Origin: Tetrahymena thermophila SB210
Taxonomy: Eukaryota; Ciliophora; Oligohymenophorea; Hymenostomatida; Tetrahymenidae
Reading direction: 5' to 3'
DNA: 64,000 nucleotides
NCBI RefSeq assembly: GCF_000189635.1
Contig: NW_002476454.1
Location: 682,001-746,000, forward strand
Part shown: positions 10,143 through 42,262 of the stretch, in pieces
Numbering within the stretch: the stretch's first letter is position 1
How the letters are laid out: the number at the start of each line of letters is the position of its first letter
Position numbers and translations under genes: made by a program
The notes under the pieces: generated by a model
The model's input: the letters and a program-made list of their open reading frames with translations, nothing else
Database searches by the model: none
Told to the model about the DNA's origin: nothing

Positions 10143-13100
10143 ATGAGTTCCTTTAAGTAATATCTAAGGATCAGACCTATTGATTATGAGTCTGATATGA
10201 TATAAATAGAGGACAATAAAGTAACGATCAAAGACACTTCATTTAAAATGAACTAAAGCGTTGCTTTGTCTGGCATGCAAGCAGAAGATCAAAGCTTCAA
10301 GTTTAACAAGATCCTTAATTAAGGTGTAAATCAAGATAGATTATTTTAAGAAATTGGGGCTCCTTCAGTAGATAAAGTACTTCAAGGAGTTAATTCTCTT
10401 ATTATAAGTTATGGTTAGACGGGAAGTGGAAAGACATATTCAATATTTGGCTAGCACCCAGAATATTTATTAGATCAGCATTAAACAATAGATGAATAAT
10501 TAGGGAAAGCAAGAACAGATTAGCGAGGTTTAGTTCCTAAATCAGTAGATTATTTATTAAAAAAAGTGGTTGAATTGCAAGATACAAAAGAAATAGTAAT
10601 TACGATGAGCTTTGCTGAAGTGTATCTTGATAAAATTCATGATATAGGAAAATTTTATCTCTTATAAGGTATTTATATTTTGTTAAGATTTGCATTAAAA
10701 TAATAATTAATGTATTTTTTGCTAATTATATAGATGGAGGAAAGAAAATTTTGAATATAGGTATCTTAAAATATAAAAAAAAGACAATTTAAAGAATAGT
10801 TTTTATTATAATATTGCAAATATAGATAGAGTTATCAAAGAGTAAGAAAATGAAAATCTTACAATGTACGAAAATACAAATGGGTAAATTGTGGTTAAGG
10901 ATTTAACACTTATAACCTTAGAAAGTATAGAGTAACTCTATGGAGTTTTGAAATCATGTGTATATTAATTATAAGTCTAATGTTTTGTATTTAAAGGGAT
11001 TTTCTTTAAAATTTTAGTTTTAAATAAGAGATCAACTAGAATTAAAAGGCATTTCAATATGGGAGAGAGCACATACTGTAATATGCTAATTACTGTTGTT
11101 TATTTAACTATTTTTGTTTATAATAGATATTTACAATTAATGTCATTCAGAAGGATAAAGAAAATGAAAATATACCTTTCTCTAATTGTTTCCTTTAATT
11201 TGTTGATTTAGCTGGCTCAGAAAGAATAGCTAAAAGCTTAACAGAAGGTCACAAATACTAAGAATCGATAATAATTAATTAAAATTTGTCAGTACTATGC
11301 AAAGTAGATATTCTCTTTATAAGATTTTATAATTTTGATTTTAATTTTTTTTTTTTGAAGTGTCTGCAATCAATCTCTTTGAAAGGCAAGTCAATACCTC
11401 ACAAAGAGTCAAAACTATCTAGAATTTTGCAGAATACTTTATAGCCAAGGAGTTTTATAACTTTAATTGGTAACATAAATCCTAGTGAAAGTAATTACGA
11501 AGAATGCTTAGCAACACTGTAATACATAGAAAGATGCTCAAAGGATGCTCCTAAAACTCTTCCAATTTCATCAAATAATAGTAACATAAATAATCTAACA
11601 AATAGTAGTGTAGTAAACGATAAGGTTGTTTAAAAATTGTAAAGAGATAATTAAGAATTAAAAGAAAAATTAGAAAAAGTATAAAATGATCATAAAAAAA
11701 GGCTACATGATATATAAATGATATTAGGTATAGAAGTTGAGCTTGATAAATTATTTTTAAAAAGCTCAATCAGAGAATTGAATCATTTAAAGCAGTAAAA
11801 AGAGGCGATGATGAAAGCAGAAAATTTACAAAAGCAGAACGAAGAACTAGAAAAAACAATAGATAATCTTCATAAGCACATTGATGAAATAAAAAGAACT
11901 GAGCATAGAAAGTGGGAATCATAAAAATGTTAAATTATAGAACTGAAAGAATCACTTGTAAACCTAAAATGTAAATACTTCAAATAATAAATAGAATATT
12001 TAAGTTTTTTATTTGAAATAGAATAAATAAGCTCAAAAGAAATGAATTCAAAAAGTGACATCAAACAGTTTCAAAAAGAAAAAGAATAAGACTTGAAAAA
12101 TTTAATAGATAGAAGCAACGCACTTTTAGAAGAAAGGAATAATTTAGTTTTCAATCTTCCAACATTTGTGTAAAATAAAACTTAAGAAAATTAAAAAGTA
12201 AATGATCTAAAGAAAGCAACTAAATACGAAGCTGAAAAAGAACACAAATCATAGATCGAAACTTTAAAAAAAGAATATCAGTAACTACTAGAAAACTCTA
12301 AAACGCAAGTAAGAATTATTTACTAGCCTTATAATATGATTTAAACAAAAAAGATAACTTTTATTATGTTAAGATAGATAAGCTATTTATTAAAAATGAT
12401 TCTAATTTTATATTATCATATTCAAATAGTTTGAGTTCTACCTTAAGCAAAAGAATGAATAAATTGATCAATATGTATAAGATTCTAAAAAATACAGAGA
12501 AGAAAAAAAAAAGTAAATAGATGAAATGAAATTAGAAATGAGTGAAATGTACGAAGTTATCACAAGGCTGAGCAGTATCTTGTAAAAAGTTGAAGTAAGC
12601 TAACCACAATTAAGAAGGATATTGTTTTAATTTAAAATTCAAAAAAAAGATGGGACATTATAGTGGAGGCATCAAATCAGTAAATATCCCTGAGAAAGAA
12701 AAACCTATTTTACCAGTCAGATAAAAATATAAACAGTATTAAAATTTTTAAGCTTATATTGAGTTAAATTTTAAATTTTTTTTTATCTTAGCTTATTTAA
12801 AGTTTTAGATTTAAAGCATTTACGCTAAGGGAGCATGAGATAAAGTGATGCTGGTTTAAGAAAGAGTGCTTCTGTGGCATCTGCAATAAGCTAAAACTAA
12901 GATATTAAAAAAACTAAATCAGGTGTTTCCTATCCTCCTGAAGAAGAATAAGCTAAGGATGATATAGATAATGAAAAACAAATGCAGAATGAAAAAGATT
13001 TGAAGGAACAAGAAAATAATAGAATTGACATAAATATAAATCTTAATTAATTTAAAAATAAGGATGACTTTATTCATATTAAAAATTTTGCAGAGAGATT

Positions 13101-14897: not shown

Positions 14898-16256
14898 TCA
14901 GCTAGATTTTTTTTCTACAATCTTAGGAGTAATACGGAATATTTTTATTTTTAAGACGTCTGCCATGGTGTTTGTAACTTCATATACTAAGTGACAGTAA
15001 CATACGAATGAATTGATTAATACGCCACAAATTATATATGTCTAGTATTATTAAAGACCGAAAATACCCATTGATATAAGAGCAAGGCATGAAAGAATAA
15101 AACTGACTCTCCATTAGTTATATTTTTCTTTAGTGATATGTGCTATTTAAATGTGAGAAGTTACCTTACTCCAACCTAAGCTTATTCCATAGAAGTATAA
15201 AACTAATAGATATTTATGTTGATATACGTCAGTGTAAGCATAGACAACAGAGTGAGTTATCAATAGTAACACTACACAAAGCAAACTTTCTAAAGTTGAA
15301 ATGAAGCTCTTCTTTTACTTCTTGCATTCAATATAAGTGTCAATAATAAATTAGAAGAATTAACCACATCCCATAATGCTTACTATCAATATAAAGAAAG
15401 AACCTATTTCGAGACCAAATGGACCTTCAGTTCTCCAAATTTATTAACCAAAAATAGCACTGATTAAGAAGACAAGCTAAACTAAGATCAAGCCTTCATC
15501 TATAGCATTAATTCTACCTATTTTTTTTAAATGGGAACAATAAGTTTCTATGCTTTAATAATTATTATATTGATAAAGTATAATTAATAATTTTTCAATT
15601 GATTGTATTCTCTTATTTATTGCTATTATGTTGAAATCCTAAATAAGTAAATAAATATTTTGCTTCTTTGTAAAAATATCTCTTTATTTTATAAACTCTT
15701 ATTTGAATTATAAAATATATTAAAAATTACCTAACTTAAAGACACCTACGTGATATTGAGACCATTAGGCTGTGTAGAATGGGATTAAGGCAAGTATGAG
15801 AACTGCCCAATATATAAGACGCTTATCAGAAATATGGAATGCATTTGCAACGCACATACCAAACATCCAAGTTACTACGGAGTCACACCCATGATCAAAA
15901 AGCATACCTAAAGGACTAGATGATCCAGTGGCTCTAGCTTATTTACCATCACAGTTGTCAAGGATCTAGTATTATAATACAGCTATGAACATAACAAAAG
16001 AAACCCAAGAAGGTATTTCTTGTGAGAAGTCAGGAGAATGATACATCATATTTAAATGTGCGAGAAATACGATAATGGATGCTGTTAGAGTTATAGTATT
16101 TGGGGCTATGTTAGAGGGGATAAACTTCTTGACAATCCAATCGCATAATGGAGACCAAAAATACTCATAAACAATTGATACAGATCCTCCTTTATACTTG
16201 AATTCTTTTATTCCTTATTTACCTTCTTCGGAAATGTATTGCTTAAAGAAACCCAT
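14898..16256 (-). CDS. CDP-alcohol phosphotransferase (ethanolamine/choline phosphotransferase)
   Basis: The enzyme joins CDP-ethanolamine or CDP-choline to diacylglycerol in the ER, the last step of the Kennedy pathway. The catalytic CDP-alcohol motif D-G-x2-A-R-x8-G-x3-D-x3-D is complete: DNCDGKQARATG then SSSPLGMLFDHGCD at about residues 102-127. Several hydrophobic helices follow, as expected for this family. Two exons (15731-16256 and 14898-15517) flank a 213-nt intron with GT/AG ends; joining them gives GVFKLGRINAIDEG, the family's usual sequence at that point. The product is 381 residues, the normal size for eukaryotic members. The start ATG precedes MGFFKQYISEEGKQG. Substrate preference (ethanolamine or choline) cannot be told from the sequence. 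Confidence 0.95.
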
Positions 16257-17754
16257 TTATTTTAATTAAAGTTCTAGGATTTTGATATTTCAATAATTTA
16301 ATTTTTTTTTCTTAAAAAAATTTTATAACAAAAATTATTTGTTTCTTTGATAGATTTAATAAATTAATTTGAGGTAATAGAGTGTGTTTCGATGATAAAG
16401 ATTTAACAAAATTATAATTCAATCAAGCAAAGTAAATATTATAAGCATTACGTATTAGATATCGTAATTTTTTGCTGCTGATCAAAAATAGAAAAAAGAA
16501 AAACAATTATTCTTTACTATATCAGCAAAAGAGCTTATTAAATAAATAAGCAAACAAATTATCAACAATACTTCATTTCAAGCTTTATACGAAAACAAAA
16601 ATTAATTCCAACTCAAAGATTCTTAGATTATAATCAGAATAATTAATTTGGATCTTTTATGAAAATGTTCATTTGATAATCTTATTCTGAGAAAGGTGGA
16701 GTGCAATTATAAATCAAAAAGAACCTTTAATTATAGCTTTGTACAATTTTAAGCTTTAATATTTTTCATAAAATAGGGTTTTAAAGCTAAATTACTTTAA
16801 TTGATTGTGAGAATGATCAAAAATTAATAATTTAATTTTTCTTTGTTCCAAATTAAAAATTGTCAATCTTCTCAAAAATTTACACATAGTGATATCCTAA
16901 ATAATTCATCATTTATGATTTTTTATAAAAAATTATTATGCAATATACCTGAATTTAAAAATATTTGACCGTATCTACCTAAATTGTTCCTAGCAACTCA
17001 TATTCACACAATATTTTTTATTGCAATAAGGTAAACTTTTCGTGAGGAGAATATTAGCTATTACTAATCCATTTATTAACATATTATATGAATCAAATCT
17101 AGATTTTTAATTTTTAAGTACTTATATATAAAAAATTATTATACATATAAAAGCTTTTTCTACTTAATTAGTGCGTATCTCTTTTAGTACGTAAGCAAAC
17201 AAAATTTTAAATAAACTGAAATTAAAATAATGTTAATTTCTATTTTACTTTATTCTTTCTAAAAGTTTCTATTCAAAGTTATCTATTATAAATAAATAAA
17301 TCAGTGAATCAATAAATAAACTAATAAATAATGGTTTGTTTTTTTAACATTTTTTAACCCCAACAGAAAAATAATTTTTAAATATAAAAAGTTTATAAAT
17401 TTATTATTTTTGGTGATAAGATATTGCTTAATTTAAACTTATAGATATTTATTTTCCAAAAAATTATCTCAACAATTTAAATATTTTTAAAAATTATTAT
17501 ATTAACTAAAATATGTCTTTATCATAAATGAATTAAATTTAATCAAACAATAAAAAAGCTATTTCAAAATATCACATTATATAATATAAAAATTATATTT
17601 ATCTAATTTAAATATTAACGAATTAAAATGCTTTTGGATTAATATTCTATTGAAAATTTATTTGTGGCTGGATATAATCAAAAGATATTTAATTTCAAAA
17701 CTGTTTAAAAAAGTTATACTAAATTTAATTCAGGTATTAAAACTATAAAATAAA
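16257..17754. other. divergent intergenic region, probable promoters
   Basis: About 1.5 kb between two divergent genes. A few patches with more G/C stand out (16680-16710, 17036-17060). A possible small hairpin GTGCGTA...TACGTAAGC lies at about 17172-17200. None matches an RNA family I recognise. Confidence 0.5.
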
Positions 17755-20700
17755 ATGTCAAGCTATAACAGGTGCGATAAATGCTCAGAGCATAAAGAAA
17801 AAAATCTTTTGTATGAATTTAAATTTTTTAATTTTGTAGTAAAAATATTTTACTGATAACACTGCAGATGTTTAAATGAAAAGTGTGGTAGAAATAAGTT
17901 GTTCCAATAAATATGCATCTAATGTCATAGATTATAACACAGAGATTCAAGTTAAAAAATAACTGAAGATGATATTGACTTAGTATTGAGTTCAATAAAA
18001 AGCTCTGCATAAGGCAATTTAAAATAAATAGCTGTAAAGATTTTAGATAAAGGTATGGTTGATACTATTAATAACTTGTTAGCAAATATCAATGATGTGA
18101 TTGAGCAATTACAATCTGTAATCATTCATTCATTAAATATGAATATTTTAAATAAATAAAAAATATTAATCAATATAGATTAAAACTGTATTCAATAAAA
18201 TTGTTGAGCTTTCTAATTCATCACATATTGAATATGAAAATATTGTAAAGAGGATAGACTCTATTACAAGCAGAAAAGATGAAGATAGTCATATTGCAAG
18301 GTAATTGAGTATTTTAAAAGAAAAAATTGTTTATAATCCAGAAGGTAAAATATAATTTATTCATGAGTTAAATAAGACTTTAATCAAGCAGAACTCTTCA
18401 AGTTTTACATAGCACTGTAAAAAGTAGATGGAAAAGATTAATATTTCTTTACAAGAAATAGTAAATTATTACATCATATTGAGATGCATTCTTTCTAATA
18501 TTAAGGATTTCAAATTTTCTATCTAAACAGTTCTAATTCGACACGCTCATATTAGATACCTTTGTCAAAAAGAAAGGAACTCCTGATACTGAAGATCTTT
18601 CGGATTTAATAAAACCCTAGTAGCCACAGATAGAAGAAGTTTAAGGATAAGATGAATAAGAGAAATGCGAAAAAAACTAAATTTTAAATGAGATAAATGT
18701 ACTTATAAAAAGAAAAAAATTAAAAAATTTATAATTAATACTTTATTTAGAATATCAAGCAAAGTTCATTAAGCACTATTAATGATTTGATATCGACCTT
18801 GCTGGGAAAAAGCTTTAATGTAAAATATTTTTGAATTAAATAAATTCTAACTTGCTTTTTTTAAAAATAGTACAATTCATATGTAAAAATAAATACCTTT
18901 TTTATCAAGAAAACATTTATAAAAATTATAAATTTAAATTAATTAAAGGAAGATATAGTAAAATAAATTGATTGTTATAGTTTAAATATGATTTCATCAA
19001 ATAAATTATAAAAATAGAAAGTAATAAATATTCTTACTTTAAAATGTAAATTAAAACAATTATTTAATAAATAAATTAAAGATTGTAAAATTATTAATGA
19101 GTCAATAAAGTTTAAATTTAACTTTTAATAGTTTGTAAGTTAATTTCGATAGCATTACTATTTTAATGAATCATCTTTGCAATTTTATAGAAAGTATAAA
19201 TTAAAATTAAATTAATTAAATTAAATTTAATAATTTTTTATTAAAAGGACGTAGGATATAATTTTTAAGATTTTTATAAAAATGTAATCTTCTTATAAAT
19301 TTATAGAGTGTAATTTTTAATTTTCTTCTTAAAAAAAATATTTAAATTGTCAACTTATAAATAGGGCGTAATTAATAAAATGATACAACAATACTGAATA
19401 CAAAAATATTTTAAAAATAAAGATTGTATGATAAATTTTATTTATTACTTATTAATATAAGTTAAAGTTTTTTCCATTTTATAATAAAAGAGAGTAAAAT
19501 TTAAATGAATGGGAAACATTTTTCAAAATTTTTCAGATTGTAAGCATAAATAAATAATAAAAATTTTTAAATTTAACTGATTTTTTATTGTAGGAAGTAA
19601 ATATCTTAGAAAGGATAAATTTAAAGAAAATCTATTAAATAAATTGTAGTAGGTAATTAGTTATGAGCAAATGCTAGTGTGATTTAATAGAATTAACCAT
19701 TTAAATAAAAAAGGGAGTAATTATTTGTATATTATTTAAATTAATTTACAGTTTTTTAAATTAAAAAAGTTAGTAAAATATTAAAAATGTTATTCCAAAA
19801 AAACTGTTTTTATCTGATAAAAAGGAAGTAAATATAATTTTTAACTTTATTATTAAGATTACCATTATTATTATTTAAATTTATTAAAAGGTCGTAAAGA
19901 TTTATTAGCTTATTTTCATATTTATTAATGGTATTTCCTAAAAAAGTTGGTAAAAATATTATCATTTTTTATTTTGGTTTATTTTTAAAAATTTTGTTAA
20001 TTTAAAATAAAGAAAGTAATCTTATATTATTAGCCTTTTATCATGAAATTAAAACATAAACTACTAATATAAGCACGTAAATTAATCTATATGATGACTC
20101 TTTTCTAAAATAAATGATTTAATTAGGTGGTAAAATTAGCTAATTACTATTTTGGATATTAAGTATATTTTAAATTAAGGAAGTAACATATTACTCATCA
20201 TCATTATTTGATCTTCTTAGCTCATATTTATTTATGTTAAATAAAGGAAGTAAAAATATAAACTTTGATTAAACTAGATAATATATGAATAACATTTTAA
20301 ATCTATAGGGAGTAATAAAATAAAATTTAATAAGATGCCATACAATTAGCTTTATTCTTAAAAAAATAGGAGGTATTAAATTTATTTATAAGAGAGATTA
20401 AAGATATTTACTATTTATTTAAAAAAGAGAGTAAAGGAAAAACTTATTTATTTTTAAACAATTTGTTTAAATTTAACTTATTATTTAACGAAATAAGGAT
20501 GTAAGATATATATTTTTATTTTTTATTTGATATAAATATTCTATTATTATCAAAAAGTGGGTATGAAGACTTATTGGAATACAAATATTAATTTGATTAA
20601 TATTTATAGGAAGTAATTTAGTTGTCATTTACATATTTTTGATACAAATATTTTTATAAATTGAAGATGTCATCAAGGATTTACAATACCTACTAAGAAA

Positions 20701-20927
20701 AGAACAATATAATATTGTCTTTATAAAAAAAAATGTTGTGAACATTAAAAATCAATAGACGATAATAATTAAATTAATTAATTAAATTATTTTGCTTGAG
20801 TTCATGTTATGTGTTTTTTTGTAGAAGGAAGACATTAAAAAATAATTATTACATCAAAAAATTAAAAATTAAAGATTTAGTAAAATCTTAAATTGAAAAA
20901 TAAGATTTCTAATAAATTTAACTATGA
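17755..20927 (+). CDS. B-box zinc-finger protein with a run of single-codon exons
   Basis: Exons 17755-17810, 17868-18117, 18179-18460, 18531-18698 and 18751-18819 join in one frame. The N-terminus RCDKCSEHKEKNLLC, with later Cys and His residues up to H43, is a B-box-like zinc finger, here often followed by helical, coiled-coil sequence as in TRIM-like ciliate proteins. After exon five the frame passes through exons of 12 nt (18871-18882) and 9 nt (18949-18957), 28 exons of 3 nt (19018-20612), then 20667 to about 20737 and a last exon from 20825. TGA at 20925-20927 ends this model at about 367 residues. An apparent stop at 18832 lies inside the intron 18820-18870. Alternatively the last exon splices at 20880 into 20978 and the gene continues as the FHA gene. 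Function is unknown. Confidence 0.75.
18871..18957 (+). other. 12-nt and 9-nt microexons leading into the array
   Basis: Exon 18871-18882 (Tyr-Asn-Ser-Tyr) lies between AAAAATAG and GTAAAAATAA; exon 18949-18957 (Glu-Asp-Ile) lies between AATTAAAG and GTAAAATAAA. Both are phase 0. Their introns are 51 nt (18820-18870), 66 nt (18883-18948) and 60 nt (18958-19017), like those of the 3-nt array. They connect the ordinary exons of the B-box gene to the single-codon exons. Confidence 0.72.
19018..19539 (+). other. 3-nt exons 1-10 of the microexon array
   Basis: Each exon is one codon between an AG and a GTA. Start positions and codons: 19018 AAA, 19082 ATT, 19132 TTT, 19191 AAA, 19248 GAC, 19307 AGT, 19365 GGC, 19423 ATT, 19491 AGA, 19537 ATT. 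They encode KIFKDSGIRI. Intron lengths between them are 61, 47, 56, 54, 56, 55, 55, 65 and 43 nt. The introns do not look like copies of one another. Confidence 0.82.
19594..20129 (+). other. 3-nt exons 11-20 of the microexon array
   Basis: Start positions and codons: 19594 GAA, 19650 TAG (Gln in this code), 19714 GGA, 19770 TTA, 19825 GAA, 19891 GTC, 19947 TTG, 20013 AAA, 20074 CAC, 20127 GTG. They encode EQGLEVLKHV. Introns between exons 11 and 20 are 53, 61, 53, 52, 63, 53, 63, 58 and 50 nt; the intron before exon 11 is 54 nt. GTC, CAC and GTG are unlike the surrounding A/T-only DNA, which argues for selection on these triplets. Confidence 0.82.
20180..20612 (+). other. 3-nt exons 21-28 of the microexon array
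   Basis: Start positions and codons: 20180 GAA, 20247 GAA, 20309 GGA, 20370 GAG, 20428 AGA, 20498 GAT, 20558 TGG, 20610 GAA. They encode EEGERDWE. The intron before exon 21 is 50 nt; introns between them are 64, 59, 58, 55, 67, 57 and 49 nt, and the last intron (20613-20666) is 54 nt. It opens into a normal exon starting ATGTCATCAAGG (MSSR...) in the same frame. Confidence 0.82.
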
Positions 20928-23657
20928 TAAACAACGGAAAATTAAATTTAACACCAACATAAATAGCTTATATTAAGGTAACTTCAAACCCGAATCCAAT
21001 ATCTTGGTCTGTTGAAGATCTCTAGCTTGCTCTAAACTAAAAAATTCCAAATAAATTTACAGATTTAATTACTGAGCTTGGATTCATCGGCAATGATTTG
21101 GTTTCTAATAATTATGATATATTCTTATAAGCAATTTTAGAAATAAAATAGTAATTAACTTCAGTGGATAAAATGAAGTTCAAATCTTTTTATGATGAGC
21201 TCATAATTTTAAAAGATTTATATTAGTAAAAAGGTGATTTATTAGAGTAAATAAAATTGGAATAGCAATAAAATAGTAATTAACAAATTAATAGTTAGAA
21301 TAATAATCCAAGATGTACTTAAAGTTTACAAAGTGGTAAACAAATTACTCAATTTTTATGATAGACATTTAAAAAAACAATTATTTTATAATATTTCAAT
21401 AGGAATTTAGTAAAATCAAGAAATTATATAAAAACCACCTAATTATTCAGAATGTAAATTCTTTTTATAGTTAACAAATAAGTTTAATGCTTTCCAAATT
21501 TGTAATATAAGTAATAACAGCTAAAATAGCTTCTCCAAATAATTAAGGCAGTAAAGCTGAACTTGGATAAATCCAAGGTATGTTTTTAAGATTAATGCAA
21601 ATATTTTAGATTTTAATTTATTTTCATATAAAACAAATAGAAAGTTTAGTTGAAGAAATGTTGATAAACGAATAATGTAATTAATTAATTTTATATTTAT
21701 TTATAATAACTTTTAATAACTTTATATCAATAAGAAATACAAATATTAGATTAATAACATGTTCCAAAAAAAAATGAGAGCCAAATATCTTATTATAGTG
21801 ATAACAATCTTGCACCTTTTAAGAAAAATTATGATTAAAATTGTTTCAATGTTTTCCTTGATGCTTAAGTATATGATTTAAAATAAAATGATTAATCGGA
21901 GGAGGATGAAAGTGATGACGATGTTAACATTTAATAAGTTGATTAACCTTCAAATATAAAAACGTAATTAATTAATCATTTTATTTTAAAATATAAATAT
22001 ATTTTGTTAAAAAAATAGGGATTTTAAAAGCATTTTAAATTAAAATACTGTTTTATAGAATCTCAAGGATCAATAAATTTAAATTAACGATGGTAAGAAA
22101 TTAATTAATCCTTACAGTAAAAATACTGACAAAGATGATAATGATGAGGAAGATGATGAAGAAGATGATGATGAAGATGATGATGATGATGAAGAGGACG
22201 ATGAAGATAATTATGTTTAAGAAGTTGATCCTTATGGGGGAAAAAAATTTGAGATAACACCTCAAAATAAGGATGAAGGTAGAATGAATTTTAAGAATTA
22301 AAATAAAGTTGATTAAAAAGATGAATTTACAATTTTTAAATAAAAACCAAGCTAAGTTTAATAACAGGCCTAAATACTTAACTAAACATCACCATATTAA
22401 ATAATTTAGGCGTAATTCGATTAAAAAGGAAATAATACTACATCAGAGTAGCAGTAAATAACTAATGGTTATGAGTAATTAATTACAATAAATAACCCAA
22501 ACCTTATACATAAATAAGCTACTGAATAATTAATGAAAAATAAATAAGATGAAGAAGAAACACAATAGTATATGAAATTACCTAACAATTAGATTTCAGA
22601 ATAAACTAAAACACTCAATTTATTTAATTTTCCAAAATTACCTTTAGACTTTAAGAGTTTTGATTACACTATTTCAATACAATCAAAAGACTAAGAACCG
22701 AATATTTAATTTGCAAAGGAGGTTTACTTTTTAAAGTAATCAGAGGAACCTCTTAATTTTATAATAAACATTTCTAGAATTAGAGATGAAACTATTAAAA
22801 ATAATTACCTTATAAATGCATAAGACTGCTCTAGAAATCACATATAGATCTTATGTGATTAATAGTATAGGTTTTATTTAGGTAATAATAAAGGTAGAAA
22901 TGGTACATTTATTAAAAGTAGAGAATACGAAGAAATCTTTAGTAATACTGAACTATAAGTTGGTAATATATTTTTAGAGTTTAAGGTAGTTGAGATTAAG
23001 GCAAATGAAAAAAAGGCTCGTTTGGTAATAAATGCATTTAGTATTAACTAGTAAGAATAATAAAACGAATAAACAATTTTTTTAGAATATAATTCTAATT
23101 AGAATTTTATGATAGGCAGAAATAATTCTACATATTTCTCAGATTTATTTTAAAAAGATACTCAGCTTAGTCGCAAGCATGGAGAAATTTATTTAAATGA
23201 ACTTAATGTATTCGACCCCAAAGAAAATAAATATATTTAATAATTAAAGGTTATCTTCTAACAATTTAGTCCAAGAAATGGTTCTTGGATTAAAATTAAA
23301 GGTAAATAATATATAGGAAATGATTCTGTAATCAAAGTAGGAGTTTAAAATTTTTTATAAATCAGTATATAAGCAAAAAAACCTAATAAATACACAATAA
23401 ATACATAATAATAACACTAAGACAAATTTTTAAATCTTAACGAAATAGGACCAAATTTCTTGCTTAATTGTAAAAGGTTAAACAAAGATCACTCTATAAG
23501 TGAAAATTTAATGGGTTTAGGATGTGGTCACACTTTTTGTAAGGACTGCGAAAACAGATATTTTTTGGATATGATTAAATGTAGAGATAGTAAATATTTA
23601 AAAAAAATATGCCCTATTTGTTATGAAGAATTATAATCTTGCAGTTTAAAAATATGA
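20924..23657 (+). CDS. protein with two FHA domains and a C-terminal RING-like finger
   Basis: FHA domains bind phosphothreonine peptides and RING fingers recruit ubiquitin-conjugating enzymes, so a phospho-directed ubiquitin ligase is a reasonable inference. After a helical N-terminal part comes a long Asp/Glu run at about 22130-22210, then a Gln-rich linker. FHA one contains CSRNHIQI and GNNKGRNGTFIK (about 22820-22920); FHA two contains FMIGRNNSTYF, LSRKHGEIYL and SPRNGSWIKI (about 23100-23290). The finger GCGHTFCKDC...CPICYEEL ends the protein, but its first Cys pair is degenerate (only NCKRLN). About five introns are needed before 22080; the rest is one exon to TGA 23655-23657. The ATG at 20924 overlaps the previous gene's stop, so it may be internal to a larger gene. 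Confidence 0.8.
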
Positions 23658-25829: not shown

Positions 25830-25900
25830 TGCTGCGTCCGGGAATCGAACCCGAGCCGATTGCTTGGAAGGCAATAATCCTGCCACTAGACCAACGCAGC
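25830..25900 (-). tRNA. tRNA-Gly, anticodon UCC
   Basis: The minus strand folds into a full cloverleaf of 71 nt. The acceptor stem is GCTGCGT paired with ACGCAGC with discriminator A. The D arm contains GGTCTAGTGGCAGGA, and the anticodon arm is ATTGC/GCAAT around loop CTTCCAA, so the anticodon is TCC. The T arm carries GGGTTCGATTCCC. The D and T arms hold the usual A-box and B-box promoter elements. No intron is present and CCA is not encoded. Confidence 0.97.
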
Positions 25901-26667
25901 TCTGATGAAATAATCCTAAAATATGAATCATTAATAAGTTGATTAATTTACACATATTTAATCAATATCATAAAAAAATATTTGAAGATACCATATAACT
26001 AACTATAAAAGAAATTTTGTAAAATTAAGTGATAAATTTTACATATCTAGAGCTAGCTAAGCAGATTAGTTTTCTTAAAATTTATTTAAGGTAAGTATAA
26101 AAGAATATTTGTAAATCGCAACTTTTTAGGTTTAACTGTAATCAATAAAATTTATTTAAAATGCGCATTCTAAAATCATTTCAATATATTCTATTATTCG
26201 TATTAGAATTCTTTCGAGTTAGTTAAATATAAAATTATTCAGCAGAATGCATAAATTTATCAAATGAATTTATTGAATAAATGTATACCAATATATCTAT
26301 CTATCTATTTATATATACTTATATGTTTTTTATTACTAAAAATAATGTTTAAAATCATTCGAATTAATTTAAAAAGATTCCAAATTTATTATTTTAAACA
26401 CGAATTCAATTGTGATTATTTCTTCTCTGAATTATTTACCAATCATATTGTGTTTTATGCGGGTCTTTACAATAATACTAAAATAAATTTCAACCCTTCA
26501 AAAATGACTCTTGTTTATCTTTTTAGTTCTATCCGGATTAGAGTTTGAGATATATCCAGATTTCCTGTTCATTAAATAAAAATTAAACAAAAAAAAATTA
26601 CCAACAAAAAAAAGAAGAAAATCAATAATTTTATTAAAGCATTTAATTAAGCGGACATTCATTAAAA
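25901..26667. other. divergent intergenic region (tRNA-Gly and coronin)
   Basis: This holds the upstream side of both the tRNA gene and the coronin gene. A reading frame at 26264-26548 has poor composition and no family features, so I treat it as chance. Confidence 0.5.
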
Positions 26668-28973
26668 ATGGCTCAAAAGTTTAGATTTAGAAATCTTTTC
26701 GCAAAATCTCACACAAAGTGGGAGGACATTTAACCTTTAGGTGGTGCTACTGATGGTTATATAATAGCAGGTAACTCTAAGTTCATAGCTTTCCCCCTTC
26801 AAGGTGGTATGGGAAGCACTTTAGGTGTATTAAGCTATAAGCAATCTGGAAGAGTCAAACAAATTTCTTAAATTAGGGCCCATACTTCTCACATTACTGA
26901 TTTCAAGTTTTTGCCTTACTAAGAAAACACTGTAGCTACTGCTTCTTAAGATGCAACCATTAAGTTTTGGCACATTGATGATGATAATAGCAAAGATATT
27001 GACACTCCATTAACTACACTATCTGGACATGCTCTTAAAATCAATTTGATTGCTCCCCATAACTCAGCTAAAGGTATATTAGCCTCTGCATCGTATGACA
27101 AGACTATCAAGGTAAATACTTTAAATTCTTTTTTTAAAATCAGTCATTAATATTACTCTTATAACCTAACATTTTTAAAATAGCTAATTAACTTTTTTAA
27201 ATATTAATTTAGGTTTGGAATACTGAAGAAAGCAAAGATGTACTTACTATTAACTAAGGTAGTAACTATGCTCTTTGCTTAGAGTGGTCCCACGATGGAT
27301 CAATCCTAGGTTCTACATGGAATGATAAACAAGTAATATTATTATTTAAAGTTGACTCCTTCATTAATATTAAGAAGCTAGACTTTTATAAGACTTTTAT
27401 GATGGAATTGATTATTCTTTAATGCAGACTATTGATTTAAGGTTAATAAAAATTCTTTTATTTTAAAATAAAAATAGGTAAGAATTATTGATCCTAGGTA
27501 ATAAACATTTGTTAAAGAATTCGGAGCTCATCAAAGCACCAGAGCATAAAAAATGGCCTTTTTAGGTAATACAAGTTACTTCGTAACTACAGGTTTTGAC
27601 CAAGTATAAAAGAGATAGCTTTTCCTTTGGGATATTCGTAATACCTCAAGCAATATCAAAGTAGAAGGCTGTTCTTAAGCTTAAGGTGTTCTCCATCCCT
27701 ACTATGATAGCGATTTAGGTATTTTATATCTAAATGGTAAAGGTGAAGGCTTAGTCCGCTTATTTGAATACCAAAACGGAACTCTCACAACTCATTAAAA
27801 TGATGTCATGGTTACTGATACTACTAAGGTAAAATATCTTATCAAATTTTATAATAAGAAGATATATCTTAATTGAGAATTTAAAGTACTTTAGGATTTT
27901 ATCAATGCTTTTAATATAAAATGAATGAAAACTTATTAGCAATAATTAATCCTTCAAAGTTTTATATAAATGAATTTAGTTATTTTTGAATGATGAAAAT
28001 AAATAATCTAAATTTATAACATGTATACTAACTAATTGCAAATTTATTAAAATTAAAGGGATATGGTTTCTTACCTAAGTATGCTGTAGACACACATTAG
28101 AATGAAGTTTGTAGATTAGTAAAATTATGTAGCAAATACGCTGAAGCAGTTTCTATCATTTATCCTAGAAGAAGTTAAGACTTTTAAGAAGATCTCTATC
28201 CAGATTGCTCTATTGACTTTAGCTTGACAGCTCAATAATGGCTTGAAGGTTAAAATGCTTAACCTAAAGTTGCTGCCATGAAGGATTTAAAGTTGTCTAA
28301 CCACACTCATCATAGTAAGCCTGCTACTACCACTCACAATTAAACTCTTTCTCATCAAGTTCACCATACTACTACCACTACTAATGTTACCCAACCTCAA
28401 AGAAAATCAAGTAATACTTAAACTAGTCATACTACCCATCATGTTAAGACTGAAGCTAAGGTAGAAGCTATTTCAGAAAAAGAAAATAGTCATCCAAACA
28501 ATCAACAAGATGTAGAACACTAATAATTACAAAAAGCAATCGAAGAAAACAAAGATTATTTAGCTAAAAATGAAAACTTAAAGAGTGATTTAGCTCAAAA
28601 AGATGCCGAAATTACTGAATTAAAGAGCTAAGTTGAGTATTTACATCTTTAAGTTTAGGAAAGAATATAGAATGAGTAAAGTGTTAGTGTTTTGACTTAA
28701 GAAGTAGAATAATTAAAACAAAACTTGGTTTAAAGTGAAACCTAAAATACTGAGCTTAAAGAATAATTGCAAGCATAAACAGTTACTTTCTAATAAGAAA
28801 AAGAATTGCTTAACTTGCAAATTCAAGAATTTAAATAAAAATATTAAGACTGCATTCAATTAGTATAAACTTTAAGCCAATAAGAAGTAAGTCTTGAAGG
28901 ACTTGAGCATGATTAACTTCTTTAATCTCTCAGATCTCTTGCTGAAAAAGGCGAATAGAACTCTTAACTTTGA
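26668..28973 (+). CDS. coronin, actin-binding WD-repeat protein
   Basis: Coronins bind F-actin and regulate Arp2/3 and cofilin at the cell cortex and on phagosomes. The start MAQKFRFRNLFAKS is the classic coronin opening (basic signature, then WD repeats). WD-like repeats end in IKFWHID, IKVWNTE and LFLWDIR. The conserved block YLNGKGEGLVRLFEY is present. After a variable His/Thr-rich linker (about 28300-28460) comes a long C-terminal coiled coil for oligomerisation, ending at TGA 28971-28973. Three introns (about 27112-27211, 27331-27478 and 27829-28058) have GTA/AG ends. The length of about 610 residues is somewhat longer than the usual 450-500 because of the extended coiled coil. Confidence 0.96.
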
Positions 28974-40083: not shown

Positions 40084-42262
40084 TCATATATATTGTGATG
40101 ATTTAAAAATTTTTAATTAAAAATAATTTATAAATGCATTTGTTTATTAATTGAGTTAGTTATTTTTTGTAGCTTCAGCTTTAGTTTTTAATGTATGTAA
40201 GTCTCTTAGATTTGTGCATAATATCAATAAATAATTATGAATCTGGGCTTCTAAAAATACAGAAAATTAAATAATTAAATGAAAGAAACATTTTAAAATT
40301 TACAATCTAAATAAGAAATAAACTATCATTAATTTTTAACATTTGTTGAGTCTTTTTGCTAATTTTATGATTCCTAACTTTTCTACTTTATTTTAACTTA
40401 TAATAATAAAAGTCAAAAAACAATTAAATGATCTAATTAATTACATTCCTATAATTAAATCTAAAAAATTTAAATGTTTCAGATTTTTCAAACCATTTCC
40501 TATTCCTTCCATACCATCTACACCTATGTTACATCCACTTTTTAAATTAAAATAAATATAATGCCAAGTTTTATGATTTTAATTAACTTTCCAATTGTAA
40601 GATATAGTCTTTGTAGATGGCGACAAAATTTTAAACCTTAACCTAAATATTTAGCACCCTCAGATCCTGATTGTTTGTAAAATAAATATTGTACGATTTA
40701 TCATAGAATTACTTAATATTACCTATTTCATTTCTAATAAATTTAAAAGTAAATAAAAATGATTAAAAATATATTAGTTAATTAATTACCTTACTATAGT
40801 TAAGTCGAGTAATATTAAATGATAACATTTTGAGAGACTTTCTGCAAAAAATTTTATGCCTACATGATCTATTTAATTTTCTCTTTTAAAAGTTTTGAAG
40901 AAATAAAAAAACAAGTTTTAACATATTTTAAAAATAGAGTGAGTAATAAATTACTGTCCTATCCTAAGATATAATTTTTTTAGTATGCCCAACTTTTCTA
41001 ATCCTCTAGATAATTATTTAAGTCCTTCATTTTCAATATAATTGCCTCTGTTTAATTAAATAGTACGAAATTTATTTTTAAAAATATAACTTAAATTTTT
41101 TAATTTTATAAATTACATTCCAAATGAAATAGATAAATTAGTTATCTTTGAGCAGCTATTCAAAGCATTTTCTAAGTAATAGCACACTTTCTTAGAGTAC
41201 TAGTTATCGCTAATTATTATTAAAATAATATAATTCTAATAATTTTGTTCTTCAAATACTTTAATATTTCTATAGTAAATTCCTTTAAAAAGCTGAGCTA
41301 TGATACTGTTTCAATTATTTACTAAAGTGGATTATCATCAATGTGCATTTAACTATTTTGAAATAAAAAACTATAAGCAAAATAATTTAATGAATTATAA
41401 GCTTCTACTTTCCTAAAATAAGAGTTAAACTCCTGAGTACCACACATTTTTTTAGAGCTTGGGATACTTCCAAAAATTCATTTTATTGCAACTCTTTACT
41501 ATATTGTAAATATATATTTTAGTCTAAAAAAATTAATTTATTTAAATAATTTAAACCTTTGTACAATAATCTTGATTTCTTACAGTTTATCTAAAGTAGG
41601 AATACTTGAAAGTAAATAGAAGATACATAGAGAAGAATAACTTTAAAGTTAGTTTTTACTTTATTTTATAAAAAACTTAAATTAAAAAATTTTTATAAGC
41701 AAAAGTACTCTTAAATTTCAAGTGAATATTTTTTGATCTCTTTACATTGCAAAAGAGACTTTCCTATTTCTTTGATTCCCTACATTCCCACAAAATTACC
41801 TCTATTCAAAAGATTTTATAATTTGTTATCATATTTAAAATAAAAAAATTGAATTTAATAAAAAATATGAAAAGAGTAATTTATTTTTAGCGATCAATCA
41901 ACATACTCGCTTATTTCTAACTATAGATCTTCAATTTTAGTATTTCTTAAAATATCTTATCCTAGTTTTTTAGCTCCATCTATTCCTTTAGATTTTCCAC
42001 TATAAATTTTAATATAATAATGATACATAAAGTAGTTATTAATTCAATAAAAAGTTAATGAAGAAAGTAAATTTTGTTTCATTTTAAAACGATTTCTTAT
42101 TGTTTATCTTTTCTCTTTTTTCTATTTAACAAAAAATATTTTATTTATATAATGATTACATCCCTAAACTTAGAATTTGTTTCATTATTTTTGAATAGAT
42201 ATATATCTTTAAATAAAAGATCTATCTAGATTTGTTCAACTGGAGTTAATACTATACTAAAT
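40084..42262 (-). CDS. leucine-rich-repeat protein, start unresolved
   Basis: The minus strand encodes a row of LRRs of the ciliate type with a Gly core: CNIGVDGMEGIGNGLKNLKH (about 40470-40545), NYIENEGLKQLSRGLEKLG (about 40985-41060), CYYLENALNSCSKITNLSI (about 41125-41195), RGNFVGMQGIKEIGKSL (about 41750-41810) and GKSKGIDGAKKLGQDIL (about 41950-42005). Such repeats form an RNase-inhibitor-like horseshoe for protein binding. Introns fall between most repeats, so each repeat sits on about one exon. The last exon ends at TGA, complement of 40084-40086. The 5'-most exon I can see ends near 42170 and extends back to about 42262, without a clear ATG. Binding partner is unknown. Confidence 0.75.

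Follow-up and report, generated by a model that had tools for sequence, protein, structure and literature searches.

The closest precedent for the locus described here comes from Tetrahymena itself, where tandem exons of one exact length, 90 bp, with introns of a single phase, phase 2, encode an LRR protein, and growth of these arrays by unequal crossing over was proposed (PMC6564038). The present array is likewise built of exons of one exact length and one intron phase, but its exons are 3 nt, the phase is 0 and the protein has no LRR match; similarity between units, described as still visible in the youngest group of the 90-bp arrays (PMC6564038), is hardly visible here. Single tiny exons have been described as a 1-nt exon in Arabidopsis APC11 (PMC4674806), a 1-nt exon in plant VPS55 (PMC8831610) and a 3-bp exon in Drosophila homothorax (PMC7392893). 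Like the array exons they are too small for exon definition, although there is one per gene in those cases and 28 in a row here, and for the two plant genes sequential removal of the flanking introns has been suggested. Consecutive micro-exons, including a “3-bp exon”, are reported from human RPS24 (PMC12686416, PMC11162997), three in number compared with 30 here. In Schistosoma micro-exon genes, many short, mostly in-frame exons likewise make up much of the protein; the abstract of the report gives exon sizes of 3-81 bp and its text 6-81 bp, mostly 15 bp, with 10-20 exons and introns that range from 100 bp up to nearly 5000 bp (PMC10526429), while the introns of the array are only 43-67 nt long. 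Very small exons also follow one another in long series in aphid bicycle and megacycle genes; megacycle has over 100 of them, with 118 exons for 2092 residues, approximately 53 nt each, in about 100 kb of DNA; these exons are phase 2, not phase 0 as here, and the products are putative salivary effectors (PMC9168663).

Single exons of 1-3 nt and short micro-exon runs are already known, while a run of 28 single codons is, as far as we found, new: a literature search on tiny-exon runs, Tetrahymena exons and exon arrays, with most subscription papers outside its coverage, gave no run of 3-nt exons among the matches listed. In recursive splicing the intermediate AG|GT points have zero length, and no base is retained from them. 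The array would resemble it in that a long stretch is removed stepwise, but three bases are kept at each step. If the 28 one-codon exons are real, the array is to our knowledge the most finely split coding stretch known, and it would put any account of how exons are located in splicing to a hard test.

The window analysed here is the whole stretch of 64,000 nt of Tetrahymena thermophila DNA; its code 6 reading and exon array likewise point to Tetrahymena. We consider it likely, with good confidence, that in this window the C-terminal region of a ciliate gene is carried by 30 consecutive phase-0 micro-exons of 12, 9 and 28 x 3 nt, separated by introns of 43-67 nt. The predicted gene lies on the plus strand. 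Exon 1 (17755-17810), with the ATG start and a Cys/His-rich stretch, CDKCSEH, exon 2 (17868-18117) and exon 3 (18179-18460) were all placed by our gene finder. Exon 4 (18531-18698) was returned at intron priors from 1/80 to 1/20 and in a whole-window run, and at 1/150 it reads through to a stop at 18785; exon 5 (18751-18819, encoding NIKQSSLSTINDLISTLLGKSFN) was returned at priors from 1/80 to 1/20, and is replaced in the whole-window run by an 84-nt last exon. Both sequence scan and gene finder placed the 12-nt exon (YNSY) at 18871-18882 and the 9-nt exon (EDI) at 18949-18957, preceding the run just as the initial annotation had them. A script applied to 18820-20700 recovered 28 AGNNNGTA sites, the same number as previously counted, with triplets from 19018-19020 to 20610-20612. 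In order, the 3-nt exons from this motif scan are AAA (K) at 19018-19020, ATT (I) at 19082-19084, TTT (F) at 19132-19134, AAA (K) at 19191-19193, GAC (D) at 19248-19250, AGT (S) at 19307-19309, GGC (G) at 19365-19367, ATT (I) at 19423-19425, AGA (R) at 19491-19493, ATT (I) at 19537-19539, GAA (E) at 19594-19596, TAG (Q in code 6) at 19650-19652, GGA (G) at 19714-19716, TTA (L) at 19770-19772, GAA (E) at 19825-19827, GTC (V) at 19891-19893, TTG (L) at 19947-19949, AAA (K) at 20013-20015, CAC (H) at 20074-20076, GTG (V) at 20127-20129, GAA (E) at 20180-20182, GAA (E) at 20247-20249, GGA (G) at 20309-20311, GAG (E) at 20370-20372, AGA (R) at 20428-20430, GAT (D) at 20498-20500, TGG (W) at 20558-20560 and GAA (E) at 20610-20612. 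The last exon (20667-20741), encoding MSSRIYNTYQEKNNIILSLQKKML and ending with a TGA stop, was returned at priors 1/40 and 1/20.

The flanking AG and GTA are invariant in the 28 units, and the central triplet is variable. The 27 introns between the 3-nt exons have a mean length of 56.0 nt (s.d. 5.6) and the range of 43-67 nt given before; five of them have lengths that are multiples of three, with no clear avoidance. From exon 5 on all introns are phase 0, and 3-nt exons 11-20 do read EQGLEVLKHV, so these parts of the initial annotation hold. At sequence level the units are micro-exons in the usual sense, i.e., internal exons of up to 30 nt with splice-site flanks, showing AG|3 nt|GTA in 28 of 28 cases plus AG exclusion at the acceptors. 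Two arguments of the initial annotation are correct as observations and weak as evidence. There is indeed no TGA among the 28 triplets, which include one TAG, and a single frame does run from the ATG through the five exons, the 12-nt, 9-nt and 28 3-nt exons to the exon with the TGA, giving 334 residues. This continuity says little, because every part of the array is a multiple of three and removal of the whole array would also be in frame.

The claim that 28 such sites lie far above chance was well founded. Markov models of orders 1, 2 and 3, built on the array region and run for 1000 simulations per order, gave means of 1.2, 1.9 and 3.4 sites and maxima of 7, 7 and 10. When AG and GTA separated by k = 0-24 nt were counted, k = 3 was seen 28 times, where the rest of the window predicts 1.25; the runner-up, k = 1, was seen three times against 0.98, and all three cases overlap 3-nt units. 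The array units do not have the zero-length form of recursive splice sites: AGGTA occurred twice in the region, where 1.85 were expected, and each copy overlaps a 3-nt unit. At a spacing of 35-75 nt, the longest chain of AG|NNN|GTA contained 28 members in the array and one elsewhere in the window, with both strands included, and never more than four in order-3 simulations (n=2000). For fixed exon lengths of 0-129 nt on both strands, spaced by 35-110 nt, the second-best chain in the window consisted of four 93-nt exons. As a viral control we used 120 contig pieces among the matches listed, comprising 1.1 Mb and chosen for carrying two AGNNNGTAA units downstream of a donor at array-like spacing; their longest chain was 2 in 92 pieces, 3 in 24 and 4 in four, the maximum being 4.

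Splice-site signals were compared over 31 introns, i.e., the 27 inside the 3-nt run, three before it and one after. Three features considered here, AG exclusion, depletion of decoy GTA and intron size, lie outside the motif that was searched for. Not a single AG was found within 15 nt upstream of the acceptor in the 31 introns, compared with 9.85 expected from intron rotation, and 0 of 5000 rotations reached this value; 72 short introns of nine predicted genes, picked for high scores, had 8 AGs in the same 15 nt. Internal decoy GTA was depleted in the array introns, 5 against 18.0 +/- 3.8 in base shuffles. The corresponding numbers were 35 against 45.7 (base shuffles) for 82 other predicted introns from ten high-scoring genes and 87 against 106.9 for 164 low-GC blocks. 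In length the array introns match the sizes most often seen in 215 introns predicted for other parts of the window, a rough set with overlapping predictions on both strands. According to PMC5014332, Tetrahymena introns of 45-70 bp carry the strongest splice sites, and the same report records no conservation of exon bases beside ciliate introns. The acceptors speak against our preferred reading, with AAG in 18 of 31, TAG in 12 and CAG in one, compared with TAG 46, AAG 17 and CAG 9 among the 72 other short introns. No branch-point motif stood out in the array introns.

The triplets were scored as codons by contrasting codon use in nine open frames from other parts of the window (2820 codons) with noncoding triplets, the latter taken from low-GC stretches, assumed to be noncoding, and from the array's own introns. 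The 28 triplets scored +19.4 bits. Six pools of noncoding or other-site controls had means of -10.3, -1.9, -17.9, -4.2, -7.7 and -12.4 bits, and 0, 2, 0, 0, 0 and 0 of 20000 draws, respectively, reached 19.4. Real codons had a mean of 7.8 bits, with 260 of 20000 draws reaching the array score. The triplets are, then, more codon-like than usual codons, chiefly through G in first position; this base occurs in 13 of 28 triplets against a codon norm of 22%, which counts against the preferred reading. With the first base fixed as observed, noncoding triplets from outside the array gave a mean of 11.9 bits (151 of 20000 reached the score) and real codons 18.7 bits (8209 of 20000). At exon edges, first-base G was found in 22% of 94 junctions and in 29% of the 41 phase-0 ones, with no strong edge preference. 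Second-position C is absent from all 28 codons.

Together, AG exclusion, GTA depletion and codon-like triplets speak for genuine splice sites with true codons between them, and the depletion of decoy donors suggests that splicing accuracy is under selection. The one-codon-exon reading proposed in the initial annotation gains support from these features and from the common intron size, all of which had been left untested there.

Performance of the gene finder depended on the price of an intron. The program is small, takes its codon scores from elsewhere, has hand-set splice matrices and was written after the array had been seen. At an intron prior of 1/20 its model ran in one frame from exons 1-5 through the 12-nt and 9-nt exons and the array to the last exon; 24 of the 28 3-nt exons were exact, three were stretched and one was dropped. 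Fewer 3-nt exons were kept at 1/40 and 1/80, and at 1/150 the gene stopped at 18785. A whole-window run at 1/120, retrained on predicted introns outside the array, ended the gene with the 84-nt fifth exon and omitted the array. With retrained matrices and priors of 1/150, 1/60, 1/20 and 1/5, the array model scored 6.8, 38.9, 77.3 and 125.9, a model with one large intron 32.7, 37.3, 42.8 and 49.8, and a model stopping at 18785 39.1, 41.8, 45.1 and 49.3, respectively. The array model is thus behind at 1/150, near parity at 1/60 and ahead only at 1/20 or cheaper. The array would escape an ordinary gene finder, and the case is built on sequence statistics. The array may also represent a hidden class of coding sequence: as a gene finder at usual settings omits the whole stretch, similar tails may be absent from ciliate gene models.

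Several other explanations were weighed. That the pattern is due to chance and was picked out by eye is statistically refuted, as no simulation or control sequence approached 28. A diverged tandem DNA repeat, or an array of protein-binding sites with the core AGNNNGTA, unrelated to splicing, would agree with the even spacing near 58 nt, with the occurrence of AGGAAGTA at 5 of 28 units and with a gapped similarity of introns slightly above shuffles. We regard it as very improbable: within 17000-22000 Tandem Repeats Finder reported no repeat of about 58 nt, introns aligned at their acceptors are no more alike than permuted columns, the centre of the motif is variable with both flanks invariant, and neither the codon-like triplets nor the AG exclusion zone is predicted by it. 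Somewhat less remote, yet still improbable, is the explanation that 18820-20666 is one large in-frame GT...AG intron, or that the gene ends before the array, so that the internal sites, whether stepping stones or exons that have decayed, contribute nothing to the mRNA. The frame is identical with or without the array, the prior of 1/150 favours both versions (32.7 for one intron and 39.1 for the end at 18785, against 6.8), and the whole-window run at 1/120 also stops the gene early. However, the triplets are codon-like, and AG exclusion and GTA depletion are intact. Pure stepping stones would moreover be made more simply from zero-length AG|GT; two such sites with GTA are present in the region, and each overlaps a 3-nt unit.

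The micro-exons could also be real and optional, any subset being skipped in frame to give a tail variable in both length and sequence, a combinatorial peptide. All exons in the run are 3 nt and phase 0, so every skip would be in frame, and cassette skipping does occur in Tetrahymena, though it is rarer than retention (PMC3274533). Against this, skipping would need longer introns, and the depletion of decoy GTA suggests selection for accuracy. We find it unlikely, if less so than the large intron or early end.

In the preferred reading, each array intron would be recognised individually by intron definition, and most or all of the 28 codons would enter mRNA. Intron definition has been suggested for Tetrahymena, where intron retention was nearly six times commoner than exon skipping, 832 retention events compared with 139 of cassette skipping (PMC3274533). 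Neighbouring introns would not be handled simultaneously, because donor and acceptor overlap around a 3-nt exon, and the introns would therefore be removed one after another. Introns flanking plant micro-exons seem to be removed sequentially (PMC8831610), and in the array, where acceptor and donor are three bases apart, removal should likewise be sequential. Removal from 5' to 3' would give every donor a normal long upstream exon; what counts against this order is that splicing beside plant micro-exons more often begins with the downstream intron (PMC8831610), and we hold 5' to 3' and the reverse about equally probable. On balance, we lean slightly towards a protein segment built codon by codon, in about 30 successive splicing reactions that each extend the mRNA by the codon for one amino acid. 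If so, a eukaryotic spliceosome needs no exon larger than one codon, and there is no practical lower limit to exon size under intron definition. The array would then be a natural extreme that decides between splicing models. Exon definition would be impossible in it, steric constraints would make it unlikely that neighbouring introns are recognised at once, and partly spliced RNA would show directly in which order they are removed.

As to the origin, we propose with low confidence, belief and doubt being roughly in balance, an old tandem duplication of an (intron + codon) unit, after which the introns drifted beyond recognition and coding selection began to act on the codons. Duplication of a unit is favoured because all 28 exons share one exact length, as proposed for the Tetrahymena 90-bp arrays (PMC6564038). 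Gradual tiling of a long intron by tiny exons appears a weaker possibility, and predicts neither a single exact length nor codon-like triplets. No tandem repeat with a period near 58 nt was found by Tandem Repeats Finder in 17000-22000. Gapped scores between pairs of the 27 introns averaged 4.55 against 3.86 +/- 0.30 in 60 dinucleotide shuffles, a small excess; adjacent pairs scored 4.75 against 3.48 +/- 0.68, and the best pair 19.0 against 17.4 +/- 1.6. Ungapped identity of adjacent introns aligned at their acceptors (31 introns) equalled the column-permuted null, 0.394 against 0.392 +/- 0.013. Given how little the similarity of the introns exceeds that of shuffles, any duplication would have to be old.

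The window holds a second set of equal exons. A predicted 13-exon gene on the minus strand (40175-42028) has six exons of exactly 93 nt with phase 2 introns, at 41709-41801, 41260-41352, 41117-41209, 40955-41047, 40790-40882 and 40445-40537, four of them consecutive. They are interspersed with predicted exons of other sizes and were read as leucine-rich-repeat-like units, with Pfam LRR_6 found only at E 0.46. These exons resemble the Tetrahymena 90-bp LRR exon arrays but are 3 bp longer.

The predicted protein of 334 residues has a Cys/His-rich start, a long middle and a tail that reads YNSY-EDI-KIFKDSGIRIEQGLEVLKHVEEGERDWE followed by MSSRIYNTYQEKNNIILSLQKKML. It had been labelled a B-box protein, for which Pfam gave no B-box match, neither over the full length with E allowed up to 1 nor over residues 1-60 with E allowed up to 10; the Cys/His spacing of the start is B-box-like only by eye, and we treat the likeness as presumptive. 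At the same limit of E 1, the full-length protein matched only YabA (E 0.32) and CAP_N (E 0.33), both weak, with no LRR, and a PDB search gave one weak match, YabA, at E 0.21. Nor did the description of the segment as helix-like find support, since permutation tests of amphipathicity over all 28 residues gave p 0.13; the best stretch of 18 residues had p 0.12, and sub-stretches 0.40-0.50. Zinc binding and a helical middle would be only a guess at the protein's function. Searches for relatives returned 4 pattern stretches in viral contigs and 22 in prokaryote genomes, none of which was confirmed; this says little, because no such relatives are expected for a ciliate gene. Within the window no paralogue was found beyond two weak tblastn matches (E 2.9 and 8.5).

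Several further genes were noted in the window. A kinesin motor domain (Pfam E 7e-22) is found at 10854-12431 on the plus strand, and a CDP-alcohol phosphatidyltransferase (Pfam E 1e-7) at 14901-16289 on the minus strand. The plus-strand region 21654-23654 encodes an FHA domain protein according to Pfam, with a C-terminal Cys-rich stretch that is RING-like by eye. A tRNA-Gly (tcc) is located at 25830-25900 on the minus strand, and the gene at 26431-28970 on the plus strand, with Pfam matches to DUF1899, WD40 and WD40_4, is one that we take to be coronin-like.
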